64,000 nt of DNA from Myxococcales bacterium. Lineage in GTDB: Bacteria; Myxococcota_A; Polyangia; Polyangiales; Polyangiaceae. Below the pieces are notes generated by a model, which made no database searches, had not been told where the DNA came from, and worked only from the letters and a program-made list of their open reading frames with translations. Shown here one piece after another: positions 26,474 through 50,934 of this stretch. The stretch spans positions 1 through 64,000 of the forward strand of contig SECP01000028.1 of NCBI GenBank assembly GCA_004193285.1, given 5' to 3'. Numbering within the stretch: the first letter of the stretch is position 1; each line of letters starts with the position of its first letter. A program made the position numbers and the translations under genes.

Positions 26474-27748
26474 TCACTTCATGGCGGGCAGGCTGCCGTC
26501 GGCGTTACGCGGCGCGCTGCGCGCATCCGCCGCCGATAAGCTCATGTCTACGGGGCCGGAGACGCTCAGGTCGCAGTAGGCGGTCTTGTTGTCTTTGGCG
26601 CCGCAGGCGGTGAGCTGGGGCGTCTCCGTATTGTTGTTGCGCACGAAGCCGCACGCCTTGTTCTCGAAAGCGAACGAGCCGCTCACCAGGTGCACGGCGC
26701 CGCCTTGCCCTTCTCCGTTCGGCTTCCCGCCGAGCTTGAAGCCGTTGCCGTCTCCTTGCGGATTGCTGCCGCCGATGGGCTTGCCGTTGGAAAACGCCCA
26801 CGAATTCTCGATTTTTACGACGTCGTCGGCGGCGAACAAATCCCAGCCATCATCGGCGTTGTTCCAGGCGCGGCAGCCGCGGAACACGTTGCCAGGGCCG
26901 ATGCGCAGCTTGGCCGCAAAGCCGTCCGCGTTCTCGCCTCCCGTCGTCGTGTCGAGGTTGCCCCACGAATCGCAGTTGGAGACGGTGTTGTTCGCGGCGC
27001 GCGTGTCGTCGGTGGCCTGGCTGCTGGGCGCGGTGATCTGAATGCCGGTGTCGCCGCACTCGTGCACGATCACGTCGTCGATGACGTTGCCGGAGCCGGA
27101 GATGGCGATGCAGTTGTCGGCCGCCTTCATCACCTCCAGGCCTTTGAGCTGCCAGTAGTTGGCGGCGATGCTGATGCCGCGGTTGCTGTCCACTCCTCGC
27201 GGCTGGGTCGAGAAGTCCAGCACCGGGCGACCTCCCGGCGCTGCCTGCAGCTTCACGAGGTTGCCGGGCTGTCCGCTGTATTTGAATTCGATGTCGAGCG
27301 TCGCGGCGATCGCGTACGTCCCCGGCTTCAACCAGATCGTGATGCCCGGCTTCACTTTGGGCAGCGCGCCGGCCAGGCTGGCGAGGGGAGCCGCCTCCGT
27401 CCCGGGGTTCGTGTCCGCGCCGGTCGTCGCCACCCAGAGCTCGCTCGCGCTGGCAGCGCCGCCCACGGTCGCGCCGCCTCCGGGCGCGGTTCCAGCCGTC
27501 GGAGTCGAAGGCGCTCCGCCGCTCCCGGCGCCGCTCGGCACGCCTCCTTGCGGCAAGGGCGCTCCGCCGCTCCCGGCGCTGCTCGGGGGCGAGCCGGAGC
27601 CGCCACTCGCGGAGCCGCCGCCGGAAGCGGTGGCAGCGCTGCCCGCCGCCCCCGGCGCGCCGAGCTCTTCCGCGCCATCGCTACCGCACGCGGCGAGCGA
27701 GCCAAGTGCGGAGAGGGTCGCGAGCGCGTGGAGCGGAAGTCGGAACAT
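26474..27748 (-). CDS. Pectate lyase, polysaccharide lyase family 9, lipoprotein
   Basis: Predicted 424 residues: lipobox SLAAC at Cys21, Gly/Ala/Pro linker to about residue 100, then a right-handed parallel beta-helix. The PL9 signature is clear: GENADGFAAK, NNADDGWDLF and GNGFKLGG. Asp275, 299, 300 and 303 have the spacing of the four calcium ligands of the Erwinia Pel9A enzyme, and Lys338 is placed as the catalytic base. The enzyme cleaves polygalacturonate by beta-elimination to give unsaturated oligogalacturonides. It is divergently transcribed from a jelly-roll lipoprotein gene and ends eight bases from the convergent HipA-like gene. Confidence 0.9.
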   Translation of the reverse strand: MFRLPLHALATLSALGSLAACGSDGAEELGAPGAAGSAATASGGGSASGGSGSPPSSAGSGGAPLPQGGVPSGAGSGGAPSTPTAGTAPGGGATVGGAASASELWVATTGADTNPGTEAAPLASLAGALPKVKPGITIWLKPGTYAIAATLDIEFKYSGQPGNLVKLQAAPGGRPVLDFSTQPRGVDSNRGISIAANYWQLKGLEVMKAADNCIAISGSGNVIDDVIVHECGDTGIQITAPSSQATDDTRAANNTVSNCDSWGNLDTTTGGENADGFAAKLRIGPGNVFRGCRAWNNADDGWDLFAADDVVKIENSWAFSNGKPIGGSNPQGDGNGFKLGGKPNGEGQGGAVHLVSGSFAFENKACGFVRNNNTETPQLTACGAKDNKTAYCDLSVSGPVDMSLSAADARSAPRNADGSLPAMK

Positions 27749-27798
27749 GGCACCAGCTAATGCGGGCCGCTGCGTCGTCGATCACCGCCTTTGGTGGT

Positions 27799-27825
27799 CG
27801 CCGACCGCGCCGCGCGCGGTCGGCG
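27799..27825. promoter_or_regulatory. 11-base perfect inverted repeat in the PL9/jelly-roll divergent promoter
   Basis: Arms CGCCGACCGCG and CGCGGTCGGCG are separated by five bases, in the 184-base gap between two divergent genes, about 50 bases upstream of the pectate lyase start. It could be an operator or a very stable hairpin in one of the leaders. Confidence 0.45.
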
Positions 27826-27932
27826 CGTGCCGAGTCCAGCACCGACGCAGATATCCAATCACGGTGAGTGCTCCAAAAGGAGAACCGCCGCGACTCGTGA
27901 TCGATCGACCCCGTTTCCGGGATGACTACGGG

Positions 27933-28835
27933 ATGTTCCCGCGACTGCCCGTGGTCGTCTGCTGTTTGATGGCCGTAGCTGGCTGCGCCGCCGAACAAGT
28001 CGACGACGACCTGCCGGGAGGGGGGACCGGAAACACCACCTCCGCCGGAGGCTCGGGCGCGGCAAGCGGAGGCAGTCCCGCCACTGGCGGCAAACCCAGC
28101 GTCGCTGGAACCGGCAACGTTGCTGGCACCGGCGCTGGCGCGGGGACGGCGGGGACGGGCTCGGGCACCGCGGGAACGGGCGGCTCACCCGGTAGCGCGG
28201 GCACATCCTCTGGCGGCGGCTCCGGAGCTGGAACGAGCGGCGGCACGGGTGGCGGAGGTAGCCCCGGCAGCGGCGGCAAACCCAGCATCACTCTGCCGTT
28301 CACCGAGAGCTTCGAGGACGGCGTGGCGGACGGCTTCATGCCCTGGAACGAGGACTTGATGGCGGGCGAGTGGGCGGTGGTGGCAGAGGGCGCCGGCAAG
28401 GTCTACCAGCCCAAGGCGCCGGTCGCGGAGCTCGAGTTCGCGGTCGGAGGCGTCACCGCGTGGACGGACGTCGCGCTCAAGGTGAAGGTGAAGCTTGCGG
28501 ATGCCGACTCCGGCGCGCAAATCGTGCTGCGCTTCAAAGACGCCAAGACCTATTTGTTCGTCGAGATGGCGGAGGGCAAGTTCAAGCTCCGCGGTCGCGC
28601 CAACGGCTCGACCCAAGACCTCGTCGCGCCCTCCCCCAAGCCGACGATCGTGGCCGGGACTTGGTACACGGTCGGCATCACCGTGAAGGGCACCACCGCT
28701 TCCGTCACGTTGAACAACGCGCCGATAGGCTCGCCCGCGATGTGCGACGCGCTCATCTCCAACGGCGGCGTCGCCCTCGGGGTCGCCGAAGGCAGCGTGG
28801 CCTTCGACGACTTGAGCGTGACCGCGGCCCCTTAG
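27933..28835 (+). CDS. Lipoprotein with C-terminal concanavalin-like jelly-roll domain
   Basis: Predicted 300 residues from ATG 27933; upstream in-frame extension would run through the neighbour's antisense. Lipobox VAGC near residue 18, then about 95 residues of Gly/Thr/Ser linker. The folded part (about 118-300) has FTESFEDGVADGFMPW, IVLRFKDAKTYLFVEM, AGTWYTVGITVKGTTASVTL and VAFDDLSV, the strand pattern of LamG/DUF1080-like carbohydrate-binding jelly rolls. No catalytic residues are evident. Divergent from the PL9 lyase, so a pectin-binding or accessory protein is a reasonable guess. Confidence 0.65.
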   Translation: MFPRLPVVVCCLMAVAGCAAEQVDDDLPGGGTGNTTSAGGSGAASGGSPATGGKPSVAGTGNVAGTGAGAGTAGTGSGTAGTGGSPGSAGTSSGGGSGAGTSGGTGGGGSPGSGGKPSITLPFTESFEDGVADGFMPWNEDLMAGEWAVVAEGAGKVYQPKAPVAELEFAVGGVTAWTDVALKVKVKLADADSGAQIVLRFKDAKTYLFVEMAEGKFKLRGRANGSTQDLVAPSPKPTIVAGTWYTVGITVKGTTASVTLNNAPIGSPAMCDALISNGGVALGVAEGSVAFDDLSVTAAP

Positions 28836-28836
28836 C

Positions 28837-30072
28837 TCAGACGAGCGCGCGCAGCGTACCGATCCGCTCGACCAGCGGCGGGTGCGAGTAATAAAACTTC
28901 GCGTAGAGCGGGTGCGGGTGAAGGTTGGACAGATTTTCGGTGCCGAGCTTGGCGAGCGCGTCCGCCAGATCCCCCGCGTGGCCGTGGAGGTCCACCGCGA
29001 AGCGGTCCGCTTCGCGCTCGTCGCGCCTGGACCACGCCGAAAAGAGCGGCGTGAGCGGGAACGAGAGGCTGGAGGCGGCCACCATCAACACGACGACCCG
29101 GGATGGGAAAGAGGCGGCGGAGAGCCCGACGAGGCCCGGAACGGCGGGGCTCGGAACGAGCGTGAACGCCAAGTACGCCGCGCCCACGAGCAGCGCGAGC
29201 ATCACCAGCATGCGCACGAGCACGTGGTGCTTCTTCCAGTGCCCGAGCTCGTGAGCGAGCACGGCGAGGATCTGCGCGTGGCTCATTTGCGAGAGCAACG
29301 TATCGAACAGAACGACTCGCTTCACGCGGCCCAGCCCCGTGAAGTAAGCGTTCGAGTGCGAGCTGCGGCGGGAAGCGTCTACCTTCAGCACGCGGCCGAG
29401 GTGAACGCCCGCCTTCTCGGTCATGGCGCGGATCCCCTCCGAAAGGCCGCTCACCTCGAGCGGCTCCATTTTGTTGAACAGAGGCTCGATGACGTACGGC
29501 GAGAGGAAGTTCATGAGCAGGCCCACGCCGGCGACGAGCGCGGTGACCCACAGCCACCAAGTGCCGGGCGCAGCTCGAACCAGGGCCAGCGCGCCGGCCG
29601 CGAGCAAGCCGGTGAGCACCAGCGAAAGGGCCGTGCTCTTCAGCCAATCGCTCCACCAAAGGCCGGCGGTTTGACGATTGAAGCCGTGGCGCTGCTCGAT
29701 GCGAAAGTCGCCGTAGAGCTGGAACGGTACCTCCAGCACCGCGCCGGCTACCAGCAGCCCGACCACGAACAGTACGCCGCTCCCGACGAACGAGCCCGAC
29801 AGGCTTTGCACCCAGCGGTCGTACGCACCCAGCCCGCCGCCGAACAGGAACGCCCCGGTGACCAGCGCGGAGGCGACGGCGTGCACCAAGCCGAACCGCG
29901 CGCGCTCCGCGGTGTAGTCGCTCATCTTTCGTAGCTTCTCCGCGTCCACCTCGCCGCGAAGCTCGGCCGGCACCTCGTGACCGCGCCGAGTGAGGTGCCG
30001 TAAGTTGAGCCAGGAGAGGCCGAGCCGCGCGGCCACGACCGCCACATAGACCGAGAGCGCCACGTCACGCAT
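28837..30072 (-). CDS. M48-family membrane metalloprotease (Ste24/CAAX-protease-like)
   Basis: Predicted 411 residues from ATG 30072, which starts at the first membrane helix; a TTG at 30106-30108 would add 12. Several hydrophobic helices precede the zinc site AVLAHELGHWKKHH, with the third ligand in the following helix (READRFAVDLHG). The N-terminal part, with ERARFGLVHAVASALVTG and GFNRQTAGLWWSDWLKS, is typical of eukaryotic-type Ste24 proteases found in bacteria. Probably acts in membrane protein quality control. It follows kdgA closely (45 bases) on the same strand and so may be carried on the uronate operon transcript without a shared function. Confidence 0.85.
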   Translation of the reverse strand: MRDVALSVYVAVVAARLGLSWLNLRHLTRRGHEVPAELRGEVDAEKLRKMSDYTAERARFGLVHAVASALVTGAFLFGGGLGAYDRWVQSLSGSFVGSGVLFVVGLLVAGAVLEVPFQLYGDFRIEQRHGFNRQTAGLWWSDWLKSTALSLVLTGLLAAGALALVRAAPGTWWLWVTALVAGVGLLMNFLSPYVIEPLFNKMEPLEVSGLSEGIRAMTEKAGVHLGRVLKVDASRRSSHSNAYFTGLGRVKRVVLFDTLLSQMSHAQILAVLAHELGHWKKHHVLVRMLVMLALLVGAAYLAFTLVPSPAVPGLVGLSAASFPSRVVVLMVAASSLSFPLTPLFSAWSRRDEREADRFAVDLHGHAGDLADALAKLGTENLSNLHPHPLYAKFYYSHPPLVERIGTLRALV

Positions 30073-30117
30073 GGACGGCAACGTAAGGCGCCCCGAGCGG
30101 GTCGCCAAGCGCTCGTC

Positions 30118-30768
30118 TCAGTGGGCGCGGTGAGTCGCGACCGCGTCTACCAGCTCTTTGGCCCGCGCCGTGATGACGGCCAGGTTGCCGGCCGCGAGCG
30201 CCTGCGCATCCACCAGCTCGGAACCGATGCCGAGCGCGGCCGCCCCGGCGGCCAGGTATTCCGGCGCGGTGGCGGCGTTCACTCCGCCCGTGGGCAGGAG
30301 CTTCACTTGGGGAAGCGGCCCCTTGAGCGCCTTGAGGTATTTGGCGCCCCCCATCGCGGAGCAGGGGAAGATCTTCACCATGTCCGCCCCCGCCTTCCAG
30401 GCCGTGATGACCTCCGTGGGGGTCAGGGCGCCGGGCATCATCGGGACGCCTTGCTGCAGCACGTACTCGACCGTCGGCAAGTCCAAGCCGGGGCTCACTA
30501 CGAACCTTGCGCCAGCGCCCAGGCAAGCGCGAGCCTGCTCCACGTTCAGCACCGTGCCGGCGCCGATCAGCGCCCGCGCGCCGAAGCGGTTCGATAGGCT
30601 CTCCATCAGCTGAACTGCGCCCGGCACCGTGAGCGTGATCTCGAAGATCGAGATGCCGCCTTCGAGGATCGCTTCTACCGCGGCCGTGGCGAGCTCCGCG
30701 GTGGGCGCGCGCACCACCGGTACGAGCACCCTTTGCTCCAACTGCTCGAGTACTTCTTCGCGTTTCAT
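30118..30768 (-). CDS. kdgA: 2-dehydro-3-deoxyphosphogluconate/4-hydroxy-2-oxoglutarate aldolase
   Basis: Predicted 216-residue class I aldolase splitting KDPG into pyruvate and glyceraldehyde-3-phosphate. Catalytic residues are in place: Glu43 in FEITLTVPGA and Schiff-base Lys132 in DMVKIFPCSAMGG. Also seen are RALIGAGTVL and LPTGGVNAATAPEYLAAGA. ATG 30768 is one base after the KduD stop, so it is the natural start; upstream in-frame residues belong to kduD read in another frame. Third gene of kduI-kduD-kdgA. The intermediate kinase step (KdgK) is not encoded nearby. Confidence 0.93.
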   Translation of the reverse strand: MKREEVLEQLEQRVLVPVVRAPTAELATAAVEAILEGGISIFEITLTVPGAVQLMESLSNRFGARALIGAGTVLNVEQARACLGAGARFVVSPGLDLPTVEYVLQQGVPMMPGALTPTEVITAWKAGADMVKIFPCSAMGGAKYLKALKGPLPQVKLLPTGGVNAATAPEYLAAGAAALGIGSELVDAQALAAGNLAVITARAKELVDAVATHRAH

Positions 30769-30769
30769 G

Positions 30770-31528
30770 TCAGCGTCCCATCCACCCGCCGTCCACCGTG
30801 AGGACATGGCCGTGCACGTAACCTGCGGCGGGTGAGCACAAGAACACGGCCGCGCCGGCGATATCGCGCGGCGTGGCCCAGCGCCCGGCCGGAATGCGCT
30901 CGGAAATTTGCCGAAAACGCTCGGCGTTTTGGCGGAGCGCGGCGGTGTTGTCGGTCTCCACGTAGCCCGGCGCGACCGCGTTCACGTTCACTCCGCGCCC
31001 CGCCCATTCGTTGGCCAGCGCCTTGGTGAGCTGCGCGACGCCGCCTTTAGCCGCCGCGTAGCCGGGCACCGTGAGCCCACCCTGGAACGAGAGCAGCGAA
31101 GCCACGTTGACGATCTTGCCCGAGCCTTGCTCGAGCAGGTGCTTGCCGACCAGCTTGCAGAGCGAGAACACGCTCGTCAGGTTCACGCCGATGACCGCGT
31201 CCCAATCCTCGTCGCTATGCTCCACCGCGGGCGCGCGGCGGATGATGCCGGCGTTGTTCACGAGGAGGTCCACCCGTCCGAACCGCTCCAGCACCTCTGC
31301 CACCAGGCGCGCGGGGGTGGCGCGGTCACTCAGATCGCCGGAGACGGCGGCCGCCTTGCGGCCCTTGGCTCGGACGACGGAGGCCGTCCCGTCTGCGGGG
31401 CGAGAGTTCCCGTGGCAAGCGACGTCCGCCCCCTGCTCGGCGAGCGCCTCTGCGATCGCCGCCCCAATGCCGGCGGATGCGCCGGTGACCAGCGCGACCT
31501 TGCCGTCCAACCGGAAAAGATCGCTCAT
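30770..31528 (-). CDS. kduD: 2-dehydro-3-deoxy-D-gluconate 5-dehydrogenase (SDR family)
   Basis: Predicted 252-residue NAD-dependent short-chain dehydrogenase. TGASAGIG binds the cofactor, NNAG at about residue 91 is present, and the Ser144, Tyr157, Lys161 catalytic triad lies in NVASLLSFQGGLTVPGY followed by AAAKGG. Glycines and the C-terminal PAAGYVHGHVLTVDGGW fit KduD. In the pathway it reduces 2,5-diketo-3-deoxygluconate to KDG. SDRs are numerous, so this assignment leans on position: its ATG overlaps kduI by four bases and kdgA follows after one base. Confidence 0.85.
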   Translation of the reverse strand: MSDLFRLDGKVALVTGASAGIGAAIAEALAEQGADVACHGNSRPADGTASVVRAKGRKAAAVSGDLSDRATPARLVAEVLERFGRVDLLVNNAGIIRRAPAVEHSDEDWDAVIGVNLTSVFSLCKLVGKHLLEQGSGKIVNVASLLSFQGGLTVPGYAAAKGGVAQLTKALANEWAGRGVNVNAVAPGYVETDNTAALRQNAERFRQISERIPAGRWATPRDIAGAAVFLCSPAAGYVHGHVLTVDGGWMGR

Positions 31529-32349
31529 TTTTGGCCCTGGCTCGCTTCCAGACCCGAGCCGGCCTGGTCGAAGCCCGGCTGCACGTTCACCACGCCGAAC
31601 TTGCGATCTTCGACCTCACGGTGGGCGGCCATCATCCAGATGAAGTTGATGCCGTGCCCGGGCGCGGCGACGTTCGGGTGGTAGCCGGCCGGCATGAGCA
31701 CCGCGTCGCCGTCCCGCACGATGCTCACGAGCTCCGGCGTTTGCGGATCCGTGTAGACGAGCTGAATGCCGAACGCGGGCGCGGGCATGTCGAAGTAAAC
31801 GTACACTTCTTCCAGGAGCTGGGTGTGCTCGTGGGGCGGCCAGCTCGTCCAGTTCCCGGGCTGGCTCTTGGTGAAGCCCATCAAGATGCGGCCAGCCTTC
31901 ACGTTGTCGCCGATGACGATGTTGAGGTCACGGGAGGTCGCGGGGCCGCCAGCGGTGAACTTCTGCGCCGGGTTCTGCGACACGGTCGCGTACGGCACGA
32001 CTTGCAGCGGGTACTCGCCGTCCACCTCTGCTGCGCACTCCACCAAGTCCACGTTGGAGTCTGTCGTGACCTCCACGCTCGAGCCGCGCGGCACGTAGAT
32101 CGCGTCGTACTGCCCCAGCACGTGGCGCGCGCCATCCACCACGACGCTGCAGCCGCCGTGCATGCACAGGAGCGCGGTCTCGCGCCGGGCGGTTTCGAAG
32201 CTCACGTGAGGCGAAGAGGCATCGAGCAGGATGCGGCCATAGTGCAGGTGCGAAACCGCGCTATTGCCGGGAGATACCGAAATTTTGCGACCTTTGTGGG
32301 CGGTCGTGCCGGAAAAAACCAGTTGCTGATCGCGGAGGGCTTGGGCCAT
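31525..32349 (-). CDS. kduI: KduI/IolB-family isomerase, probable 5-keto-4-deoxyuronate isomerase
   Basis: Predicted 274-residue double cupin of the KduI/IolB family. The metal-binding site is NWTSWPPHEHTQLLEEVYVY with His173, His175 and a following Glu, plus His224 in GYHPN. The PPHEH form and the length of about 270 are closer to IolB (5-deoxyglucuronate isomerase of inositol catabolism), while the operon with KduD and KdgA argues for KduI activity, opening 5-keto-4-deoxyuronate from pectin breakdown. No iol genes are present in the window. Either assignment implies keto-aldose isomerisation of a deoxyuronate. Confidence 0.75.
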   Translation of the reverse strand: MAQALRDQQLVFSGTTAHKGRKISVSPGNSAVSHLHYGRILLDASSPHVSFETARRETALLCMHGGCSVVVDGARHVLGQYDAIYVPRGSSVEVTTDSNVDLVECAAEVDGEYPLQVVPYATVSQNPAQKFTAGGPATSRDLNIVIGDNVKAGRILMGFTKSQPGNWTSWPPHEHTQLLEEVYVYFDMPAPAFGIQLVYTDPQTPELVSIVRDGDAVLMPAGYHPNVAAPGHGINFIWMMAAHREVEDRKFGVVNVQPGFDQAGSGLEASQGQK

Positions 32350-32384: not shown

Positions 32385-33893
32385 TTATTTGACGGGCGGA
32401 ATCGGAATCGAAATCTCGTCGTCTTCCTTTTGAATGCAGGAAGAGAGGTCGAAGATCATGAACTCGAGCGCCTTCTCTTGCGGCGAGAGCTCGGCGCTAG
32501 AGCTCATGTTGCAGCGCGTGGGGAACGGCTCTGCCGCGAGCTTGTCGCCACCGAACGTGACGTGCACGTCGCTGAAGACCATGCGCCCGCACTCCTTCTG
32601 ACCTACCGGCGTGGTGAACGAGAAGTACTGCACCATGTCAGCGGCGCGCTCGTCGCCGTCCGCTCCCTCGTCCGTCCCGTAGATCCAGCGCTGGGCCAGG
32701 TTGTCGTCGACGATGTCCACCGAGTGCTCGGCCTTGACGAGCGACAGCTTGCCGGCCGTCGTCGAAGCGCCGACCTGCATCAGCCAATCGCGAAACGCGA
32801 TGCCTTTGGGGAAGGTGTCGTCCACCTGGACCGTCACGGAGCCGATGTCAGCCGCGCCCTTCGAAAACGACGCCACTTTGGGGTACTCGTCGTTGGGAGT
32901 CGTGTCCCCGGAGTTGATCCAGCGGTGGTGCCAGTGCGAGCCGAAGATGCGCCCGCCCAGGTCGGCGTACTTTCGCACCTCCAGGTGCATCTCCAGGGGG
33001 CGACGCTCGGTCACGTCGTCCGGCAGCTTGTCCGGCGGTTGGTTCCACAGGTTGTCGCTGCCCTCGCAGCTCATCAAGATCATGTCGTAGCCGAGCATGC
33101 GGTTCGAATCGGCCCAAAGCTCGCGCGCGGAGGGGAGCGCGACGGACTGCCCGTTGCTCAGCATGGAGGGAGCGGCCTTGTAGCCCGCCCACAGGTTCAC
33201 GCGCCCGCCGCCGCTCTCCGGGGTGAACTCGTCTGCGTCGACACCGATGCGATGCAGGAGGCACTCGAGCGCGTCAGAGCCGCCCGTCGTGACGGCGATC
33301 TTGGGGATGTGGCCTTCCGCGGAGTTGCGCGGCAAGCGCGTGATGTCCGGCGGGAGCTTCGTGTCGGTGCACGGCTCGACCTTGATCTCCACCGTGCGGC
33401 GCCACTTGCCGAGCTGCACCGTGAGCGGGATGGCGTCACCGACCGGCACGTCAGTCAGCTTGAAGCTGCCATCGGGCTTCGTGAGCGCGACCGCCGTCGC
33501 CGTGTCCGGAAAGTGAGCGCCGCAGTCTTCGCACTGCGCGCGGTCCTTCAAGTCCACGAGCGAACCTGGCTCGGCCACGTAAACGACCGCGTTGTAGAGC
33601 GGCACCTTGCCGGCGGGGTCGTAGACACGACCGCTGACGGACGTGGTCGACGGCACGCTGTCCGCCGGGCAGTCCACCTTCTTGCAGCGCAGGGAGGATT
33701 TGTCCTCGCAGCTCGCGGGGAGCGGCGGCAAGTGGATGCTGCCGCCGATGCCGGGCGAGCTACCGGCGCCGCTCCCGTCCGCCGGGTCCAAGGTCTTCGC
33801 CGAGCAAGCCCCGAGCGCGGCCAGCGCGAGCACGCTGGCAGCTAGCATTTGCCGCCGGTGAGGGCCGCTACGGTGCATGACAGGGCTTCGCAT
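32385..33893 (-). CDS. Large lipoprotein with carboxypeptidase-regulatory-like domain
   Basis: Predicted 502 residues from ATG 33893 (ATG 33878 also plausible). Lipobox LAALGAC near residue 30. Four conserved cysteines follow (CEDKSSLRCKKVDCP), then a carboxypeptidase-regulatory-like segment (SGRVYDPAGKVPLYNAVVYV, then GSFKLTDVPVG). The middle, with MLGYDMILMSCEGSDN and YADLGGRIFGSHWHHRW, resembles the ThuA/glutamine-amidotransferase-like flavodoxin fold. Such proteins are common in myxobacteria and of unknown role. It lies 35 bases upstream of kduI, so it probably heads the operon. A substrate-binding surface role is possible. Confidence 0.6.
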   Translation of the reverse strand: MRSPVMHRSGPHRRQMLAASVLALAALGACSAKTLDPADGSGAGSSPGIGGSIHLPPLPASCEDKSSLRCKKVDCPADSVPSTTSVSGRVYDPAGKVPLYNAVVYVAEPGSLVDLKDRAQCEDCGAHFPDTATAVALTKPDGSFKLTDVPVGDAIPLTVQLGKWRRTVEIKVEPCTDTKLPPDITRLPRNSAEGHIPKIAVTTGGSDALECLLHRIGVDADEFTPESGGGRVNLWAGYKAAPSMLSNGQSVALPSARELWADSNRMLGYDMILMSCEGSDNLWNQPPDKLPDDVTERRPLEMHLEVRKYADLGGRIFGSHWHHRWINSGDTTPNDEYPKVASFSKGAADIGSVTVQVDDTFPKGIAFRDWLMQVGASTTAGKLSLVKAEHSVDIVDDNLAQRWIYGTDEGADGDERAADMVQYFSFTTPVGQKECGRMVFSDVHVTFGGDKLAAEPFPTRCNMSSSAELSPQEKALEFMIFDLSSCIQKEDDEISIPIPPVK

Positions 33894-35411: not shown

Positions 35412-35436
35412 GCGCCTTAATGCGCGCGAGCGCGAA

Positions 35437-35460
35437 TTCGATCGAAAAGACCGCTTTTCG
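35437..35460. promoter_or_regulatory. Overlapping palindromes upstream of exuT
   Basis: A 10-base perfect palindrome TTCGATCGAA overlaps a 7-base-arm inverted repeat CGAAAAG, four bases, CTTTTCG. They lie 26-49 bases ahead of the exuT ATG, where a repressor would block transcription. The sequence fits an operator of GntR- or IclR-type size (both families control uronate genes elsewhere); which regulator binds is unknown. Confidence 0.5.
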
Positions 35461-35630: not shown

Positions 35631-35670
35631 TGGCCGCTTTTGCCACTCCACACGCAACCGGTGAAAGCGC

Positions 35671-42741: not shown

Positions 42742-42743
42742 TC

Positions 42744-44600
42744 ATGGCCACGCTCACCCGCAAACAGGTCGCTTCGCTGTCTTTGAGCCTGGCGCTCAAC
42801 CTCGGTATCTCCGCGCCGGCGCTCGCTCAGGAGCCCCCCGCCGACAACCAAGCGCCCGCGCCTGCGCCGCGCCCCGCGCCAAATCCGGACGCGCCGGTTC
42901 CGGCCGCCCCCGGGGGTGACGCCAACCTGGTCGCGCCGACGCCGGAGCTCAACGACCCCGCGGCGGCGGGGAACGCGAAGCCGATCGAAGAGAAGAAGGG
43001 CGTCAATACGGTCTTCCCGCCGCCGGTGGACCGCCCCCCGGCCCCCAAGCGCGAGAAGCTGCAGGTAACGAGCGTCGGCATGCGGCTCGGCGCGGTGGAC
43101 TTCGGCGCGGAGGCGGACATCGTGAGCTCGGTCGGGCGGCTCAAGCCTCCGCCGGACAACCGCCGCTGGGCGTACGCGTTGCGCGGCTTCTTCCGCGCGC
43201 CGATGCGCGTCGGTATCGGCCCGGAAACGGGCACGACGAGCGGCAGCCAGCTGCACAGCCCGCCGCGCATGACCGGCTTCGGCTCGGACGAGTGGAGCTA
43301 CATCAACGTCGCGCCCGGCGCGATCGGGCAGCTCGAGCTCGCGGTCACGAACCAGCGGGTAGAGGGCCACGTCATCCTCGCGGGTGATTTGTTCGCGGAC
43401 GCGGCCTACCCTCACCTGGACAAGCTGGGCGGTTTTTCGCAGGCATGGGTCACCCTCAAGGCGCCGGCGATGCTGGGCCTGAAGGGCGGCGCCGCGCTCA
43501 ACGTGGGCGCGTTTTCGGAGCGCTTCGGCAACGCTGGCCCCTACCAGCAGAGCACTGGCTACTACGGGACTTACTTGTTCGGCCGCACCCACGTCGCGGG
43601 CGAGTCCATGGTGCTCGACTGGGACGTGACTCCGGATCTCGAGCTGGTGCTCGAGCACGGCATCGGCGCCAAGGTGGAGGTCGTGCCGTACACCAAGAGC
43701 GGCGCGCCGATCGCGCCGTACTTGCCGAACCAAGGTCCGACGCCGCAAGGGTCGAACTTCGTGCACCACGCGCACGTGAACCTGCTGTTCAAAGACTGGC
43801 TGTCGGTCGCGGCTCACTACCTCTCGTCGTGGAGCCCCAACGATCTGCAAGAGGTGACGCAGAACCCCGCCAAAGAAGCGCGCATGACGATCATGGGCGG
43901 CGAGGTGCACCTGGATCACCCGGTGGCTGGCAATGGCTACGTCGGCTATTCCTACATCGACGCCGAGCGCATCTTGCCGCTGTCGAACGGCGTGCAGGTG
44001 CTGCATGGAGCAAACGGCGCCGGCTTCAAAGACAACTACTTTGGGCCTCTGTCCGCCGGCGTGCCGCCCGTCCTGCAGCAGGGCAAGGACGACCCCCGTC
44101 GGGACGACTCGGGCAAGCTGCACACCGTCCTCTTTCAATACATCTTGCGCGCGGCGCCGCTTCTGGGGCGGAAGGAGCCCGGTCCCGATGTCTCGCTGGG
44201 CGTCTTCGGCATGTACAACCACGTCGACGCGCTGAAGCAGGATCTGAACGGCATGACGGTGCCGGCCTACGCCTTCAAGCAGGACAAAGTGAAGCTCGGC
44301 GCGGAGCTGCAGGTCGCGCCCATCGAGCAGCTCTCCATCGGTTGCCGGTTCGACACCGTGATGCCGGACGGCGGCAACAAGGAAGTCTCCTACTCCGCCA
44401 TCTCACCGCGCATCGTTTTGCACTCCAAGTGGATCGGGCGCGAGTACGTGATCTTGAACTACACGCGCTTCGTCGGAGTCGGCAGTCAGGTGCGGCCCAG
44501 CGCGCCGTACTCCCAGCCCAATCCACCGTCGGCCCCGTTGGCTACCATAACCAAGCCAGACGAGAACCTCATCTCGCTGACGGCGATGGTCGCCTTCTGA
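42744..44600 (+). CDS. Outer-membrane beta-barrel protein (second of a tandem pair)
   Basis: Predicted 618 residues from ATG 42744; the longer open frame runs inside the preceding gene. A signal peptide ends APALAQE, followed by about 80 residues of Pro/Ala linker, longer than in its paralogue. The barrel shares strands with the first protein: FFRAPMRVGIGPETG, SPPRMTGFGSDEWSYINVAP, GAFSERFGNAGPYQQSTGYY and FGRTHVAGESMVLD. The C-terminus ends in TAMVAF, aromatic as expected for insertion by BamA. Probably arose by duplication, with divergence concentrated in loops. Substrate inferred only from neighbours. Confidence 0.8.
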   Translation: MATLTRKQVASLSLSLALNLGISAPALAQEPPADNQAPAPAPRPAPNPDAPVPAAPGGDANLVAPTPELNDPAAAGNAKPIEEKKGVNTVFPPPVDRPPAPKREKLQVTSVGMRLGAVDFGAEADIVSSVGRLKPPPDNRRWAYALRGFFRAPMRVGIGPETGTTSGSQLHSPPRMTGFGSDEWSYINVAPGAIGQLELAVTNQRVEGHVILAGDLFADAAYPHLDKLGGFSQAWVTLKAPAMLGLKGGAALNVGAFSERFGNAGPYQQSTGYYGTYLFGRTHVAGESMVLDWDVTPDLELVLEHGIGAKVEVVPYTKSGAPIAPYLPNQGPTPQGSNFVHHAHVNLLFKDWLSVAAHYLSSWSPNDLQEVTQNPAKEARMTIMGGEVHLDHPVAGNGYVGYSYIDAERILPLSNGVQVLHGANGAGFKDNYFGPLSAGVPPVLQQGKDDPRRDDSGKLHTVLFQYILRAAPLLGRKEPGPDVSLGVFGMYNHVDALKQDLNGMTVPAYAFKQDKVKLGAELQVAPIEQLSIGCRFDTVMPDGGNKEVSYSAISPRIVLHSKWIGREYVILNYTRFVGVGSQVRPSAPYSQPNPPSAPLATITKPDENLISLTAMVAF

Positions 44601-44637: not shown

Positions 44638-45309
44638 ATGAACAAGGTATATGCAGGCATCGCATCGGTCGGGTTCCTCGTTCTCGGTAGCCAAGCCGGT
44701 TGCAGCAGCGCGGACCCTCCTACGGGTAGTGGCGGCACGACCTCGGTCGGCGCGACCACCAGCACCGGCGGGAGCACCGTAATCCCGACGGGTGGTACCG
44801 GTACCGGCGGCACCGGAACCAGCACTGCCGGCACCGGCACCTCCGGCACGGGAACCGCCACCGCGGGCACCGGCGCGGGCGGCACCGGCACGGCCGGGAC
44901 TGGCGGGGGCACGGCTGGAACCGGCACCGCCGGCACCGCGGCTGGCGGGACGGGCTCCGCCGACCTCAATTGCAAAGGCATCAAAACCATGATGGCTTGC
45001 ATGCCGGAAGGCACGTCGTGCCCGGGTCAGGCGTGCGGCCTCGCCGACAGCGGCGTTCGCTCGTGCAACTGCGCGACGACGTGGGCGTGCACGGCTTGCG
45101 ATTACGCAGCATCCCCCTTCAAGGATAAACCCGCTGATCTGGCCGCCTGTGCCGGCATCGAGGGTGACAACATCACGTGCAACGAGGCGGACAAGGGCAA
45201 GGTATGCCAGAGCGCCGGCGGCGAGGTGTGCGCGTGCTGGACCGACGCGAAGGGCGCGCTCGTTTGGGACTGCGACAAGCCGCCGTCCACTTGGGCTGCG
45301 GCGATGTGA
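44638..45309 (+). CDS. Cys-rich lipoprotein with Gly/Thr linker
   Basis: Predicted 223 residues. Lipobox SQAGC at about residue 21; residues 25-105 are a Gly/Thr/Ser/Ala linker. The C-terminal 115 residues have 16 cysteines in a pattern such as CMPEGTSCPGQACG and CNCATTWACTACDYAA, which would give a disulfide-bonded extracellular module. No family was recognised. The next protein has similar spacing (CxC, then a Trp or aromatic and another C), so the two are probably distant paralogues. The operon position between the barrels and the PL3 lyase suggests a surface role linked to pectin. Confidence 0.6.
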   Translation: MNKVYAGIASVGFLVLGSQAGCSSADPPTGSGGTTSVGATTSTGGSTVIPTGGTGTGGTGTSTAGTGTSGTGTATAGTGAGGTGTAGTGGGTAGTGTAGTAAGGTGSADLNCKGIKTMMACMPEGTSCPGQACGLADSGVRSCNCATTWACTACDYAASPFKDKPADLAACAGIEGDNITCNEADKGKVCQSAGGEVCACWTDAKGALVWDCDKPPSTWAAAM

Positions 45310-45320
45310 GCGGAGGCAGC

Positions 45321-46010
45321 ATGGCGACGCACGCTGTTACCCCCCGGCATGGCTTCGAGCTACGACGGCTGCTGCTCGCAGTCGTCGTGGCGACGGGGGG
45401 CATGCTGACCGCCGCCGGCTGCTCCGGGGGCTACGACGTTCCTCCGCTCCCCAACGGCGAGCGCGCGGAGGGTGACCTGCTTTGCGAAGCGGACATGGAG
45501 CCCGGCCAGGGTGACGTGTGCACCAAAGACTGCCTCATGGCGTCATGCGCTAGCAGTCTCGGTCGCCGTGTATGCACGTGTGAGGGCGGCGTGTTTTTGC
45601 AGTGCGCGTGTCTGCCGCCCGCCGACTGGCCTTACAAGGACGTGCCCGCTGCGCCCTACTGCGATCGACTGACCGGACAGCCGCGCTACCTGAGCACCGA
45701 GGCTTGCTCCTCGGAAGGCAGTCAGTGCATCAGCAGCACCTTTCCGAATCAGGGCTGCACCTGTAGCAAGGGCAAATGGCAGTGCGGCCTCAGCGAAGGG
45801 TACTCACCTGGAGCCGAGGAGTGCGAGTCGCTCGGCAACGGTCTGCAGGCCCTGCTCAAAGACCGTCCTTGTGACACCCAGTGGGACCTGTGTGTCTCGC
45901 GCGACTTCAACCCGACCGGTACGTCCCCACGCGGCTGCTTCTGCGCCGACAAGGCCGGCCGGCTCGCGTGGCAATGTGGCGGCACCAACCGCTGGTGGCG
46001 CGCCCAGTGA
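45321..46010 (+). CDS. Cys-rich lipoprotein, second of two
   Basis: Predicted 229 residues from ATG 45321, which has GGAGG at 45312-45316; upstream in-frame codons lie inside the previous gene. Lipobox TAAGC near residue 34. About 20 cysteines follow in repeated short modules (RRVCTCEGGVFLQCACLP, then QGCTCSKGKWQCG and GCFCADKAGRLAWQC). Each module has a C-x-C step and ends with W/L-x-C, like the C-terminal module of the preceding protein. Disulfide-rich extracellular repeat protein of unknown function; the PL3 gene begins 11 bases after. Confidence 0.6.
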   Translation: MATHAVTPRHGFELRRLLLAVVVATGGMLTAAGCSGGYDVPPLPNGERAEGDLLCEADMEPGQGDVCTKDCLMASCASSLGRRVCTCEGGVFLQCACLPPADWPYKDVPAAPYCDRLTGQPRYLSTEACSSEGSQCISSTFPNQGCTCSKGKWQCGLSEGYSPGAEECESLGNGLQALLKDRPCDTQWDLCVSRDFNPTGTSPRGCFCADKAGRLAWQCGGTNRWWRAQ

Positions 46011-46021: not shown

Positions 46022-46828
46022 ATGACCACTCTACGCGCGCTCTCCCTCGTGACGCTGCTGGGGCTCTCCGCCTGCGGACCCGAGGGCCCCACGTTTCCTC
46101 GCGCCAACACGACCCCGGCGTCGTCGCCGATCGTGAAGTGGCCGACCCCGACCGGCGAAAAGCAGGTGGACGCCACCATCCGCGTGCTCACGCATTTCGA
46201 CGGGAAAATGCAGCGCTTTTACGGGGTGGACGACCTGGGCACGAGCAGCCAGGACGAGAACCAAGACCCCATGTTCCGCCTCTCGGACAACGCAGTCCTA
46301 GAGAACGTGATCATCGGGGACCCGGCCGCGGACGGCATTCACTGCTACGGCTCCTGCACCCTCAAAAACGTCTGGTGGGAGCGGGTAGGTGAGGACGCCG
46401 CCACGTTCCGAGGCCAAATGCCGGACGACGTGATGCTCATCGACCGCGGGGGTGCGAGCGGCGCGAAGGACAAAGTCTTTCAGAACAACGGCGTCGGCAC
46501 GATGATCGTGAAAGACTTTTACGTCGAGAACTTCGGCAAGCTGTACCGCTCGTGCGGCAACTGCAGCCGCCAGTCCGCGCGCACCATCGTGCTCGAGAAC
46601 GTCACCGCGCTCGTCGGAAAAAAGAGCTCGTGCCTCGTCGGCCTGAACGAAAACTACGGCGACCGCGCGATCTTCAAGGGCTTGAACCGCGTCTTCGTGG
46701 ACGCGAAGCCGAGCTTCCCGGTGTGCCAGCGCTTTCTCGGCAACGCGCGCGGCCTGGAGCCGAGCAAGACCACCACCGGGCCGGACCGCAATTGCGTCTA
46801 CGACGGCGGCAGCGTCGTCGTCGAATGA
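46022..46828 (+). CDS. Pectate lyase, polysaccharide lyase family 3, lipoprotein
   Basis: Predicted 268 residues from ATG 46022 (an AGAGA lies upstream). Lipobox GLSAC at Cys18, short linker, then the small PL3 beta-helix. Family signatures are strong: HFDGKMQRFYGVDDLG, QDENQDPMFRLSDNAVLENV, GIHCYGSCTLKNVWWE and VGEDAATFRG, followed by a disulfide-rich end. PL3 enzymes cleave polygalacturonate with calcium and are often active at high pH on low-esterified pectin. It is the last gene of the rightward operon, and eight bases separate it from the convergent hybrid kinase. Confidence 0.92.
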   Translation: MTTLRALSLVTLLGLSACGPEGPTFPRANTTPASSPIVKWPTPTGEKQVDATIRVLTHFDGKMQRFYGVDDLGTSSQDENQDPMFRLSDNAVLENVIIGDPAADGIHCYGSCTLKNVWWERVGEDAATFRGQMPDDVMLIDRGGASGAKDKVFQNNGVGTMIVKDFYVENFGKLYRSCGNCSRQSARTIVLENVTALVGKKSSCLVGLNENYGDRAIFKGLNRVFVDAKPSFPVCQRFLGNARGLEPSKTTTGPDRNCVYDGGSVVVE

Positions 46829-46836: not shown

Positions 46837-48981
46837 CTATAAGCCGAGCGCTTGCACGCGAGCTTGCTCGATCGCTTGCACGAGCTCGTTCAAGCTGTAC
46901 GGCTTGGGCAGGAAGACCTGGTAAGCGCGCGCGTCGAGCCGGTCCGCCGCCGCGTGCGCTTGGTAGCCGGAAGAGAGCACGATCGCGACGCGCGAGCCTG
47001 CTTCGCGAACGCGCCGCACGACCTCGGCGCCGTCGATGTCCGGCATGGTCATGTCCACGACGAGCACATCGGCGGGGCAGGCGGCGTGACGCGCGACCCC
47101 GCTCAGGCCGTCCTCCGCTTCGTCTACCACGTAGCCTTTTCGCTCGAGGGAGCGGCGCAGCTGCGAGCGCACCAGCTCTTCGTCGTCCACGACCAGCACC
47201 CGGCAAGGCTCGTTGCTGAGCGCGGGCGGATCGGTCTTGAGCGCGTCCTCGCGCCGTGTGGTCGCAGGCAGCACGACCGAGAATCGGCTGCCGACTCCCC
47301 GCCAGCTCTCGAGCAGGAGCGCGCCGCCGTGGCTCGTCACGATTCCGAGGCACGCCGCGAGGCCGAGGCCGTGACCGTGCTCTTTGGTCGTGAAGAACGG
47401 CTCGAATACCCGCTGCCGCGTCGCTTCATCCATACCGACGCCGTCGTCCTCCACCTCGATCAGCACCCAATCCCCCGCGCGGCCGGTCACACGCGCACCG
47501 AGGGCGTCCTCCCAGCGCGCGTCCAGCTCGCCGATCAGGCTGGTGCGCACGTCGATCTTGCCAGGCTTACCCTCGAGCGCGTCCGAAGCGTTGGTCAGCA
47601 GGTTCATCATGACCTGCGTCAAGGGCGCGCGATCGCCGATCACGACGCTGTTGGGTGCGATCACGAAGCGCATCGCCGCCTTCTTGGAGAGCGTCGCGTC
47701 GAGCAAGGTGCGGAGCTCGCGGAACAGGTCGTTCAAGTCCACGGGGTCGCGCCGACTCAGATCTTGGCGGCCCGCGTAGGCCAGCATTTGCCGAGTCAGC
47801 ATCGCCGCGCGCTCGCCCGCGCTCATGATGGCCTGAGCCGCTTGGCGATCGAACGGCGTCTCCAGCGTGCTGAGCAGCAGGCTCGCGTTGCCGATCACGC
47901 CCACGAGCAGGTTGTTGAAGTCGTGCGCGATTCCGCCGGCCAAAACCCCCAGGCTATCGAGCTTTTGGCTGCGCTGTAGCTGCAGCTCGAGCTTGCGTCG
48001 CTCTGCCTGCTGGCGGTTGCGGTCGCGCAGGTCGCGGAAGCCGGCGACCCGCGCTGGCTCGCCGTGAAACGTGGACCGCACGCCCACTACCTCGGTCGGA
48101 ATCTCTTCGCCGCTCTTGCTGAGCAGGACCGTTTCGTAGGCGCCGTGGCGGTTGTCTGCGATGGCTTCGCTCGAGACGACCCTCGCGGAAGGCGCGACGA
48201 ATTCGAGCGAGTGTCGCCCGACCATCTCCTCGGCGGTGAAACCGAGCAGCTCCTGAAAGCGGCCGCCTACCTGCACCAAGATGCCCTTCTGCGAGACGCA
48301 CATGAAGTCGAAGGCGCCGAGGGCCAAGTCCTGGGTGTGCTGCTCGCTTTCGCGCAGCAAAGAGAGGGTGCGTTCGCGCTCCGTCACGTCCCGCACCGCC
48401 GCGATGCGCACGGGGCGATCACCGAGCCGGCCTTGTTTGGACTGCAGCTCGGCGCGGAAGCGAGTGCCGTCTGCGCGCCGCGCGGTGATCGTGTAGGTGC
48501 CTTCGTGGCCGAGCGCCACCCGCCGCTTGGTCGCCTCCAAGTCCTCTGGCGCCACCGTGCGGTGGATCGTGTCCGGGCCGAGCAGCTCCTCGGGCCGGCA
48601 GCCGACCATCTCCGCCAAGCGCTCGTTCACGTCGATGACGACGCCGCCTACGTGCACCAAAATTCCCTCGAACGAGGCTTCGGAAAGCAGCTGCAAGCGC
48701 TCGCGCGTGCTCCTGTGTTCCTCTTGCTCTACCGCTCGCTTCAGCGCCAGTCGGAGCAGTGGGGTGAGCGCCACGCAAAGCTCGCGCGAGCCCCCGGCTA
48801 GCGACAGAACCTGCCTGCCCGCGCTAACGCTCAGCGAAGCCCCCGCCGCCCCGGCTTGAATGCGACGCACCCCCAGCTCGGCGAGCCGCGCCAGCGCTTG
48901 CTCCAAACAAGCGCGGGCGTCGTCACCGGAGAGCAGCTCCGTGAGCTCGGCCGAGAGGGTGGAAGGGGAGGGCAGCGACAT
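46837..48981 (-). CDS. PAS-PAS hybrid sensor histidine kinase with C-terminal receiver
   Basis: Predicted 714-residue cytoplasmic protein with no membrane helix. Residues 1-90 are an unassigned helical input; PAS domains lie at about 96-200 and 220-320. The HisKA domain has GGIAHDFNNLLVG with His353. The HATPase domain spans about 440-575 with NLLTNASDAL, EDDGVGM and EHGHGLGLA. The receiver (593-714) has VLVVDDEE, phospho-acceptor Asp643 in DVLVVDMTMPDIDG, and a Lys in FLPKPYS. An AHDFNN-type H box is common in PAS hybrid kinases. It sits between the PL3 and uxaE genes, so it may sense a uronate-related signal, but this is only location-based. Confidence 0.88.
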   Translation of the reverse strand: MSLPSPSTLSAELTELLSGDDARACLEQALARLAELGVRRIQAGAAGASLSVSAGRQVLSLAGGSRELCVALTPLLRLALKRAVEQEEHRSTRERLQLLSEASFEGILVHVGGVVIDVNERLAEMVGCRPEELLGPDTIHRTVAPEDLEATKRRVALGHEGTYTITARRADGTRFRAELQSKQGRLGDRPVRIAAVRDVTERERTLSLLRESEQHTQDLALGAFDFMCVSQKGILVQVGGRFQELLGFTAEEMVGRHSLEFVAPSARVVSSEAIADNRHGAYETVLLSKSGEEIPTEVVGVRSTFHGEPARVAGFRDLRDRNRQQAERRKLELQLQRSQKLDSLGVLAGGIAHDFNNLLVGVIGNASLLLSTLETPFDRQAAQAIMSAGERAAMLTRQMLAYAGRQDLSRRDPVDLNDLFRELRTLLDATLSKKAAMRFVIAPNSVVIGDRAPLTQVMMNLLTNASDALEGKPGKIDVRTSLIGELDARWEDALGARVTGRAGDWVLIEVEDDGVGMDEATRQRVFEPFFTTKEHGHGLGLAACLGIVTSHGGALLLESWRGVGSRFSVVLPATTRREDALKTDPPALSNEPCRVLVVDDEELVRSQLRRSLERKGYVVDEAEDGLSGVARHAACPADVLVVDMTMPDIDGAEVVRRVREAGSRVAIVLSSGYQAHAAADRLDARAYQVFLPKPYSLNELVQAIEQARVQALGL

Positions 48982-49074
48982 GGCGAGGAGTCCGCCGACC
49001 CCGGCGCACCAGCATAGCTGCGCCGACCAGCCGCCGGAAGCCCAGCCACGTTTCGCGCGTTTTTGCCGCGCCGC

Positions 49075-50934
49075 TCAGGCGGGAGCGATGTCCGCCAGCA
49101 GCGCGGCGTAGCTCGAAATCCCGGACAGCCTCTCGCGCGCAGTGTGACACGTGAGGGCGGTAGCCTGGCCCGTCGTCTCCGCCAAAAAGCACAAGTAAAG
49201 CGCCACGTTCTTGGCGTACAGCAGCTGCGCCTCGTCGCTCAACGCGTAGAACCGAGCGCGCTGCGCGTAGCCGGCCGGGGTGTGATCACCGAGCGATGCC
49301 TTGTCCGCTCGCCCGCCAGCAGCGAGGACGAACAGGAAATTGTATTCGAACCAGAACATGTGATCGGGGCTCGGGGAAAGCGCGGAGAGCGCCTCCCGGC
49401 ACGCGCGTTCGCTTTCGAACACGTCTTCTGAACGCCCTTCGCTGCGGAGCGCGTGCAAGACGAACGAGCGCGCCATGCTGCGCTCTTGCTCGTCGGCCGC
49501 GAACGCGCTCGCCGCCGCGAGCTCCCGAGTGAAGCGGTGCCAGTCCTGCCACAGCGCGCGGTCCGCTTCGTTCGAAGAAGCGGCGAGCGCGCGGCCCATC
49601 TCGTACGTGTAGCGGCCGCTCGTCTTGATTTCGAGCTTGCTGCCCGTGACTCGCCCGCACAGCCGGTAGTTTTCTTCGGACTTGCCGGAGCCGCTATGAA
49701 AGCCGATGGAGCAGCCGAAAGCCTGGCAAATGCGCCAAGCACCTTGCACTCGCCGCTCCAGCTCTGCGCTGTCGTCGAAGGGAAAGTTTTTTTGAAAGCC
49801 GAAAGCGGGCGCCACGTAGTGAATACGTAGGTCCAGCGCCTCGCAGAGCGCCAGCATCGTCGCTAGAGTCTCGGGTGAGGTGAGGCCGGGTAGCTCGTCG
49901 ATGGAGAGCTCACGGAAGTACGCCTGCCCGCTGGGCGTGCTGAACGCGCGCCGCCTGGCTTCCGCGTAGAGCCGATCGCGCCGCTGCAGCTTCTGCACTG
50001 CCGGCCACACCGCGCACAGCAGCTCCGCCAGCGCGCGCTCGTCCAAGTACAACCCGAGCCCGCTCGCGCGTGCGCGCACGTGGTCCAAAATCTTGCTCGG
50101 CACCTGCGCCGCGCACCAGCCGAGCGGGTCGCTCTGCTTCGGGGTGATGCTCAGCTCTGGCGAAAGGTCGAACGTGATGTAGCTCGAGAGCAGGCAACCC
50201 GCGACGAGCTCGGCCTCGCGCGCGTCGTACTTGCCGCCCACGGGCTGGTGATCGGCGTTGAAGCCCCAGGCGATACGTCGCTGGTGAAAGCCCGTTTTTA
50301 GCTTGGAAAGCACGGCGCCGTGGCTCATGCCTTCCACGCTCTGGCCCTGGTGCCCTTCTGGAACCTCCGCCCCGATGAACGGAAACGGCACGCCTTGTAG
50401 GCGGCCCTCGAGCATGGCGTTCACGTCGTACACGAGCTCGCGAGGGATGCTGTTCTGGTTGGCGGTCATGCTCAGGCCGAGCGCGGACATCGCCCACTCG
50501 ACTGCTGGCCAATGCAAGGTCGTGAAGCGCGCGCCGACGCCCAAGCTCTGCACCTGCAACGTGCCGCTGGCGCTAGGGAAGATGGTGCTGCTCGGATCGT
50601 GCTCCTGCACCAGGTTCTTGAGCGTCAGCAGGTTTTGCCACGTCGCCGGAAAGGCGTAAGTGTCGTTGGCGAGCGCCACGCCGTCTTCCAGCACGCTCTC
50701 GGCGCCTTCGCGGCTGCTCTTCAAGACCCACGCGCAGTCGCCGTCTTCGTCCTCGGCCAGGGTGAACGTGCCGAGCGCGACGGTGAAGCGGCTTTTTTCG
50801 AAGTGAGTGACCCGCGCGCTGCGCGCCAATCGGTCGTAAAGGCGCGCAAAATCCAGGCAAAAATCGGGCGAGATACAGGGATTTTGGCGGAGTGAGATAC
50901 GCGCTTCGGTCAAGAAGCGATTGATGGCGCTCAT
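49075..50934 (-). CDS. uxaE: Tagaturonate epimerase (UxaE) homologue, long form
   Basis: Predicted 619 residues from ATG 50934, preceded by GAAAG; an upstream in-frame TTG or GTG would add a low-quality Arg-rich tail. The core matches UxaE: WGFNADHQPVGGKYDAREAE with following YITFDLSPEL, then IGFHSGSGKSEENYRLCG and SKLEIKTSGRYTYEMGRALA, which correspond to GFGADADH, HSGSDK and HVKTAGTSYLEA of the Thermotoga enzyme. UxaE interconverts D-tagaturonate and D-fructuronate, connecting galacturonate to the glucuronate route. It is roughly 130 residues longer than the Thermotoga protein, mostly at the N-terminus. Complements the galacturonate side of the locus. Confidence 0.78.
   Translation of the reverse strand: MSAINRFLTEARISLRQNPCISPDFCLDFARLYDRLARSARVTHFEKSRFTVALGTFTLAEDEDGDCAWVLKSSREGAESVLEDGVALANDTYAFPATWQNLLTLKNLVQEHDPSSTIFPSASGTLQVQSLGVGARFTTLHWPAVEWAMSALGLSMTANQNSIPRELVYDVNAMLEGRLQGVPFPFIGAEVPEGHQGQSVEGMSHGAVLSKLKTGFHQRRIAWGFNADHQPVGGKYDAREAELVAGCLLSSYITFDLSPELSITPKQSDPLGWCAAQVPSKILDHVRARASGLGLYLDERALAELLCAVWPAVQKLQRRDRLYAEARRRAFSTPSGQAYFRELSIDELPGLTSPETLATMLALCEALDLRIHYVAPAFGFQKNFPFDDSAELERRVQGAWRICQAFGCSIGFHSGSGKSEENYRLCGRVTGSKLEIKTSGRYTYEMGRALAASSNEADRALWQDWHRFTRELAAASAFAADEQERSMARSFVLHALRSEGRSEDVFESERACREALSALSPSPDHMFWFEYNFLFVLAAGGRADKASLGDHTPAGYAQRARFYALSDEAQLLYAKNVALYLCFLAETTGQATALTCHTARERLSGISSYAALLADIAPA

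Follow-up and report, generated by a model that had tools for sequence, protein, structure and literature searches.

The window analysed here is the whole 64,000-nucleotide stretch at positions 1 to 64,000 of contig SECP01000028.1 (assembly GCA_004193285.1), and between positions 26,474 and 50,934 it carries a cluster of genes for the breakdown of pectin. An earlier note on this DNA had described the cluster as a pectin and galacturonate utilisation locus of a probable myxobacterium, with three pectate lyases, a set of catabolic enzymes, a sugar carrier and paired outer-membrane barrels, and without a SusC/SusD pair. The host is indeed a myxobacterium, of a family (Polyangiaceae) that also holds genomes matched to Polyangium fumosum DSM 14668 (G147) and Minicystis rosea DSM 24000 (G130). 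We scanned 20 proteins in and beside the locus against Pfam and 10 against NCBIfam, and the genes named in the note were found in their places. Overall, we consider it likely, though well short of certain, that this is a pectin-utilisation locus on a SusC/SusD-free plan, in which barrels of a particular family serve for uptake.

The three pectate lyases belong, as claimed, to separate polysaccharide lyase (PL) families. The PL9 enzyme (26474..27748, minus strand) matches the Pel9A-like helix PF22842 (E 1.7e-21), and its best solved relative is of the Pel9A type (1ru4, 153 bits), with a rhamnogalacturonan lyase (5olq) at 87 bits. The PL1 enzyme (39889..40986, plus) matches PF00544 (E 2e-28; solved relative 3zsc, 121 bits), and the PL3 enzyme (46022..46828, plus) matches PF03211 (E 1.3e-67; solved relative 1ee6, 115 bits). 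By eye, all three have lipobox-like signals, as does a YteR-like lipoprotein (36993..39359, plus, start placed by eye) that combines DUF4861 (PF16153, E 1.9e-77) with a glycoside hydrolase (GH) domain of the GH88/105 family (PF07470, E 2.4e-104). Solved relatives of this DUF4861-GH105 protein are 4wu0 (334 bits) and YteR itself (1nc5, 267 bits). Since YteR is an unsaturated rhamnogalacturonyl hydrolase, the enzyme may act on rhamnogalacturonan ends besides, or in place of, homogalacturonan ends.

Among the catabolic genes, KdgA/Eda aldolase (30118..30768, minus) matches the KDPG aldolase family PF01081 (E 2.8e-47) and lies above the cut-off of TIGR01182 (200.1 vs 156.05 bits). The KduD-type short-chain dehydrogenase/reductase (SDR; 30770..31528, minus; SDR Pfam E 1.5e-64) falls just under that of TIGR01832 (336.0 vs 338.85 bits). 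The KduI/IolB-type isomerase (31525..32349, minus; PF04962, E 1.2e-36) is under both NCBIfam equivalog cut-offs (104.6 vs 205 and 64.3 vs 250 bits), and its solved relatives are of the KduI type and the IolB-like type alike, at 51–53 bits. The inner-membrane carrier (34104..35411, minus) is a major facilitator superfamily (MFS) protein of hexuronate/galactonate type (PF07690, E 2.7e-56), whose top NCBIfam model is the galactonate transporter TIGR00893, below its cut-off (223.5 vs 395 bits). Finally, a 619-aa protein (49075..50934, minus) is a remote homologue of UxaE (PF16257, E 9.1e-07).

These genes are arranged in two divergent blocks around an intergenic stretch at about 35412–35838. The left block holds the carrier, a lipoprotein (32385..33848, minus; weak CarboxypepD_reg match, 18.8 bits vs 32.3), KduI, KduD, KdgA and an M48 protease (28837..30108, minus; PF01435, PF16491) that is probably outside the pathway. 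The right block, with short gaps and overlaps, comprises a VWA-domain lipoprotein (35839..36975, plus; PF00092, E 7.1e-11), the GH105 lipoprotein, a small exported protein (39356..39892, plus), PL1, two tandem barrels (41080..42741 and 42738..44600, plus), two Cys-rich exported proteins (44638..45309 and 45291..46010, plus) and PL3. None of the small and Cys-rich proteins has a Pfam match, the second Cys-rich one having been scanned on the longer open frame. The blocks are flanked by PL9, the UxaE homologue, a PAS hybrid histidine kinase (46837..48981, minus; PAS, HATPase_c, Response_reg), which is a candidate regulator, and a LamG/ConA-like lipoprotein (27933..28835, plus, start by eye). The last matches PF06439 at 28.2 bits vs 26.8 on the longer frame 27159–28835, and is possibly a glycan-binding protein. 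A further 20 flanking proteins that we scanned added no pectin gene. A shared regulator site was also sought and not found: the only 11-base word repeated among the upstream regions compared links the divergent promoter with one region upstream of the kinase, and the regions showed no palindrome in common.

The locus is laid out like a polysaccharide-utilisation locus, yet neither the TonB-dependent receptor nor the SusD families match any of the 20 scanned locus proteins at E 0.01. It shares with the SusC/SusD-type loci of Bacteroidota the joining of surface-type lipoproteins, carbohydrate-active enzymes, outer-membrane transport, an inner-membrane carrier and catabolic genes in one place, with a hybrid kinase nearby. 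Those systems, however, use a TonB-dependent receptor with a lid, whereas here we find plain tandem barrels of a predicted 18 strands, and this barrel-centred plan sets the locus apart. It is also useful to contrast it with the enterobacterial pectin regulon, which consists of Pel lyases, the KdgM porin, oligogalacturonate lyase, KduI, KduD, KdgK and KdgA. The two have in common pectate lyases (here PL9, PL1 and PL3), KdgA and, to judge from the nearest models, KduI, KduD and a kinase for 2-keto-3-deoxygluconate (KDG). In the myxobacterium, by comparison, the genes lie in one cluster, GH105 takes the place of oligogalacturonate lyase and no KdgR was found. The barrels, moreover, differ in size and family from KdgM, which has 12 strands.

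The gene-order comparison that the earlier note had suggested supports the integrity of the locus. In a congeneric genome (G139) the locus stands in the same order, with protein identities of 67–94%, and it is therefore not a chance assembly of genes. Both barrels are kept there at 92–93% identity, and so are the small exported protein and the first Cys-rich one. At this locus G139 is without the PL9 stretch (window 26467–27814) and a PL1 stretch (39903–40812), the rest of that genome not having been searched for either enzyme. Only the two ends of PL1 align, meeting at a 13-base overlap; because they do, the gap fits a deletion in G139. One gene is present there and not in the window: a 262-aa frame that by eye resembles a nucleotidyltransferase separates the M48 protease from KdgA (L032:5938-6726). 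A search of 183 genomes of the order found the UxaE homologue in 3, all from the host genus; in the third of them (G135) it is in two overlapping pieces, with a barrel on another contig. The host draft genome is 8.66 Mb, 98% complete and 7.8% contaminated, and the contig from which the window comes is 110 kb long. Since G+C is even over the whole window and the stretch is syntenic in the congeneric genome, contamination is an unlikely origin for the locus.

With the reactions taken as a review (PMC6353982) gives them, the genes suggest the following route. Exported and probably lipid-anchored PL9, PL1 and PL3 would cut polygalacturonate to unsaturated oligomers, which the two barrels, of a predicted 18 strands, would pass across the outer membrane. 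The DUF4861-GH105 lipoprotein would free the unsaturated end residue, and the MFS carrier would import the monomers. The unsaturated residue would then yield pyruvate and glyceraldehyde phosphate through KduI, KduD, a KDG kinase from outside the locus and KdgA. For galacturonate in its saturated form the way would lead to UxaC, likewise encoded outside the locus, perhaps to the UxaE homologue, and then through further steps.

The assembly of these genes into one pathway, as the earlier note had it, stands for the first of these branches and not for the second. To judge from the gene families present, the unsaturated-uronate branch can be closed as far as pyruvate, with KDG-kinase-like genes elsewhere: the host genome has five PfkB-family matches, and the three that were scanned are all nearest to KDG-kinase-type models, under the equivalog cut-offs. 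The galacturonate branch apparently cannot be closed among the families searched, because UxuA (PF03786), a UxuB/UxaB of the Mannitol_dh family and the altronate-dehydratase family (GD_AH) were all not found in the host assembly. ManD was considered in the host and rejected: neither of the two enolase-superfamily matches aligns to the ManD proteins of two other barrel loci (L049, L105), and by eye they resemble dipeptide epimerase and MenC. Thus the galacturonate branch may be unused, with the cell taking the unsaturated residue only and the 619-aa protein doing something else, a reading that we hold tentatively and rate somewhat below an even chance. The absence of these reductase and dehydratase genes and of ManD from the assembly points that way, as does the marginal UxaE match, at 28.3 vs 27.1 bits over only 131 residues of the 475-position PF16257 model. 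Some 130–150 residues near the C-terminal half do align with UxaE, the tagaturonate-fructuronate epimerase, and solved relatives are found over 136–152 residues (9kcs, E 8e-10; UxaE 6ilb, E 1e-6); unlike UxaE, however, the protein is long and remote, and the usual partners UxuA and UxuB were not found in the host. On the other hand, UxaC (628 bits) is encoded elsewhere in the genome and passes its NCBIfam cut-off, and to discard galacturonate would waste carbon. A gene may also be missing, because the draft is 98% complete. Finally, KduI and KduD may stand in for the unfound steps, since KduI of Escherichia coli facilitates the breakdown of galacturonate and glucuronate under osmotic stress (PMC3578941).

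The two barrels, tandem paralogues of about 40% identity without a Pfam family, are the most distinctive part of the locus and belong to an apparently undescribed family often found beside plant-sugar genes in related bacteria. None of 31 such barrels matches Pfam at E 0.01, and a barrel profile finds no match among PDB sequences at E 1. With barrel 1 as query, 183 genomes of the order were searched and 36 of them, including the host, gave a match. A 27-barrel profile run over 26 genomes picked for having a barrel gave 73 barrels, of which 41 are single and the rest form 16 tandem pairs, spread over 12 genomes. When the phylum was sampled evenly but more coarsely, 25 of 377 genomes had a barrel, some of them outside the order and the class. 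Two peptide patterns drawn from the second barrels of seven pairs led, over named genomes, to 21 loci; one is in a bin labelled Proteobacteria, and the other 20 carry names of Myxococcota type. Among the matches listed, the open-licence PMC literature gave no description of barrel pairs of this kind or of a myxobacterial pectin locus. In the window, as in most of these barrels, a long Pro/Ala-rich N-terminal stretch follows the signal peptide (41080-44600); it has low confidence in the predicted model.

That model of barrel 1 (mean pLDDT 73.9, pTM 0.78) has 18 long strands by our own count. Among the 50 PDB matches listed, TM-scores by query length are best for the sugar porins ScrY (0.47–0.48) and LamB (0.43–0.47). 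In their predicted form the barrels resemble these in strand number and fold, and they differ from them in lacking a sequence match to Pfam or PDB and in forming tandem pairs. AlgE, which handles alginate, is also among the structural matches (TM 0.37–0.40 by query length), and this allows a different view, in which the barrels would export or handle the cell's own polysaccharides and the lyases would trim or recycle them. A GH44 protein at one barrel locus (L102) is, in the same vein, nearest to the exopolysaccharide-cluster model EpsB, far under its cut-off (223 vs 1250 bits). We regard this view as very improbable: the neighbours are catabolic, with KduI, KduD, KdgA and the MFS carrier here and AraA, XylA and ManD elsewhere, and no polysaccharide synthase was matched by Pfam in the locus. 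A remote kinship with BBP2 barrels was not supported, hhalign giving a probability of 5.9% against a single-sequence template, the BBP2 protein encoded at 7568–9193 of the window.

Members of the family often lie beside glycan genes. Our neighbour tallies give families with no assignment to individual proteins, and cover 25 of 57 families for tandem barrels and 25 of 61 for single ones. The 67 proteins up to 5 kb from tandem barrels (12 loci) include GH3 (3), GH67 (2), GH44 (2), GH31 and GH130, together with an alpha-1,3-glucanase, MalK-type ATPases (3) and enolase-superfamily proteins (2), and, among families unrelated to these, squalene/phytoene synthase. Near single barrels (74 proteins, 15 loci) are GH9 (4), GH94 (3), CBM4_9 (3), arabinofuranosidase B (2), GH5 (2), GH48, GH1, GH6, GH3, GH39 and AraA, as well as SelO and pyruvate kinase. 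The position of GH9 genes gives a cleaner test than these tallies: the 26 genomes have 72 of them, and 15 are no more than 10 kb from a barrel, where 0.58 would be expected from the lengths; the other 57 lie elsewhere. The 15 are spread over 14 genomes of 9 genera, so the association does not come from one lineage. In the host itself, one single barrel (C22) has GH94 and GH9 beside it, and another (C41) has AraA, GH39 and a LacI regulator.

Other loci of the family show the same tendency. At L105:6991-11120, the genes after a barrel pair encode an SDR with 45% identity to KduD of the window, a ManD that scores above its cut-off and a GH67-like protein; from these matches it is likely a glucuronoxylan locus. 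Six fen-metagenome loci of Myxococcota (L095-L098, L102, L111) have a common layout of lipoproteins resembling carbohydrate-binding module family 11 (CBM11), a barrel pair, a GH44-type protein and a ROK-type regulator by eye, to which xylose isomerase is added where the contig extends (L097, L102), the names being checked in L102 only. Model scans confirmed ManD in L105 and xylose isomerase in L102. Some identifications by eye did not survive: proteins read as GH10 in L094 and L102 proved to be GH44, one read as GH30 in L105 had no Pfam match, and a GH74 in L064 was not confirmed by name. VWA-domain lipoproteins, 26–27% identical to that of the window, also occur near single barrels in L045, L050 and L062.

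The barrel-associated lipoproteins recall the CBM11 of Clostridium thermocellum Lic26A-Cel5E. A predicted model (pLDDT 77) has CBM11 as its best fold match (TMt 0.72–0.74), and a 14-sequence alignment matches CtCBM11 weakly by sequence; Pfam CBM_11 is matched by 3 of the 14 at E 0.01, one example scoring 24.2 vs 27 bits. The CBM11 of Lic26A-Cel5E is a module of an enzyme, whereas these are free-standing lipoproteins. An iterated profile from 22 of them, in which drift is possible, found 106 members across the 48 barrel loci that were fetched, against none in 26 loci without a barrel. Of 51 barrel loci, counting near-duplicates from related genomes, 35 have such lipoproteins within 5 kb.

A tree of 70 barrels separates the 21 pairs that are not of the window's type into two groups, one of first members and one of second members (support 91/84 and 100/97), with largely mirrored branching; the second-member group also includes one single barrel. 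In the three genomes that have two common-type pairs each (G071, G092, G139), the partners remain matched in the tree. Distances among first and among second members correlate at r 0.94 over the 21 pairs and 0.82 over 13 less redundant ones, with 0 of 5000 permutations as high in either case; shared descent of the hosts adds to this correlation. The two barrels of a pair may form one complex.

Several observations weigh against the reading of a barrel-centred uptake system. The window's two barrels are not of the common pair type: they cluster with those of G139 alone (100/100), next to single barrels from a different family of the order (99/94). Because they group apart from the common pairs, the window pair arose separately, by its own duplication. 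The window is also without CBM11-like lipoproteins, a place that its LamG-like lipoprotein may fill. For a third single barrel of the host (C95), the two larger neighbours that were scanned are an EDD-type dehydratase and SelO, neither of them a hydrolase. Inspection by eye found no glycan gene at L063 and, in the group L054/L058/L060/L061, only a sugar-type ATP-binding cassette importer. The control, 19 random regions of the same genomes (118 proteins), showed no glycoside hydrolase among 25 of its 150 families and is weak because the other 125 are not in the tally. No TM-score by query length exceeds 0.48, a modest value, and the E-value ranking puts a general porin, BpsOmp38, first. This last match would suit an ordinary pectinolytic cluster, with general porins nearby by chance and no dedicated uptake system, as would the 147 of 183 genomes of the order without such a barrel, which mean that the barrels are not needed for glycan use in general. 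Chance proximity is hard to reconcile, however, with barrels beside glycan genes in many genomes, with pairs that keep their partners and with the close conservation of both window barrels in G139, and we consider this alternative unlikely.

We therefore retain the reading of a SusC/SusD-free pectin locus with dedicated barrels; as the earlier note had claimed, no SusC/SusD pair is involved, and the paired barrels moreover have relatives at glycan loci of other kinds, with which they make up a wider family. Gene content, its conservation, the barrel family, the association with glycan genes and the predicted fold are what the analysis shows, and uptake, localisation, substrate, regulation and the partnership of the two barrels are inferred. 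A broader proposal, to which we lean only slightly, is that Myxococcota have their own class of polysaccharide-utilisation loci. In this class an undescribed 18-strand porin family would serve cellulose and arabinan as single barrels and other glycans as obligate heteropairs that diverge together, CBM11-like surface lipoproteins would replace SusC/SusD, and the pectin pair would be an independent second origin of pairing. The barrels themselves are members of a Myxococcota family that is often close to glycan genes of several kinds, partly in pairs that diverged together and frequently alongside CBM11-like lipoproteins. We know of no established route of glycan-fragment uptake in plant-polymer-degrading myxobacteria. 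If the proposal is true, the barrel family would be a marker for finding sugar loci in Polyangiales and for guessing the substrate from the barrel clade, and uptake could be probed directly in culturable Polyangium or Minicystis. Pairing with two origins would suggest that some glycans need two channels.

Outside the locus, the window encodes two further proteins of note. The BBP2 protein at 7568–9193, mentioned above, is another putative outer-membrane barrel (PF07642, E 1.6e-59). The other, at 18565–19539, resembles a lipoprotein and carries a protease-inhibitor domain of the Kunitz/BPTI type (PF00014, E 2.6e-18), which is, to our knowledge, unusual among bacteria.

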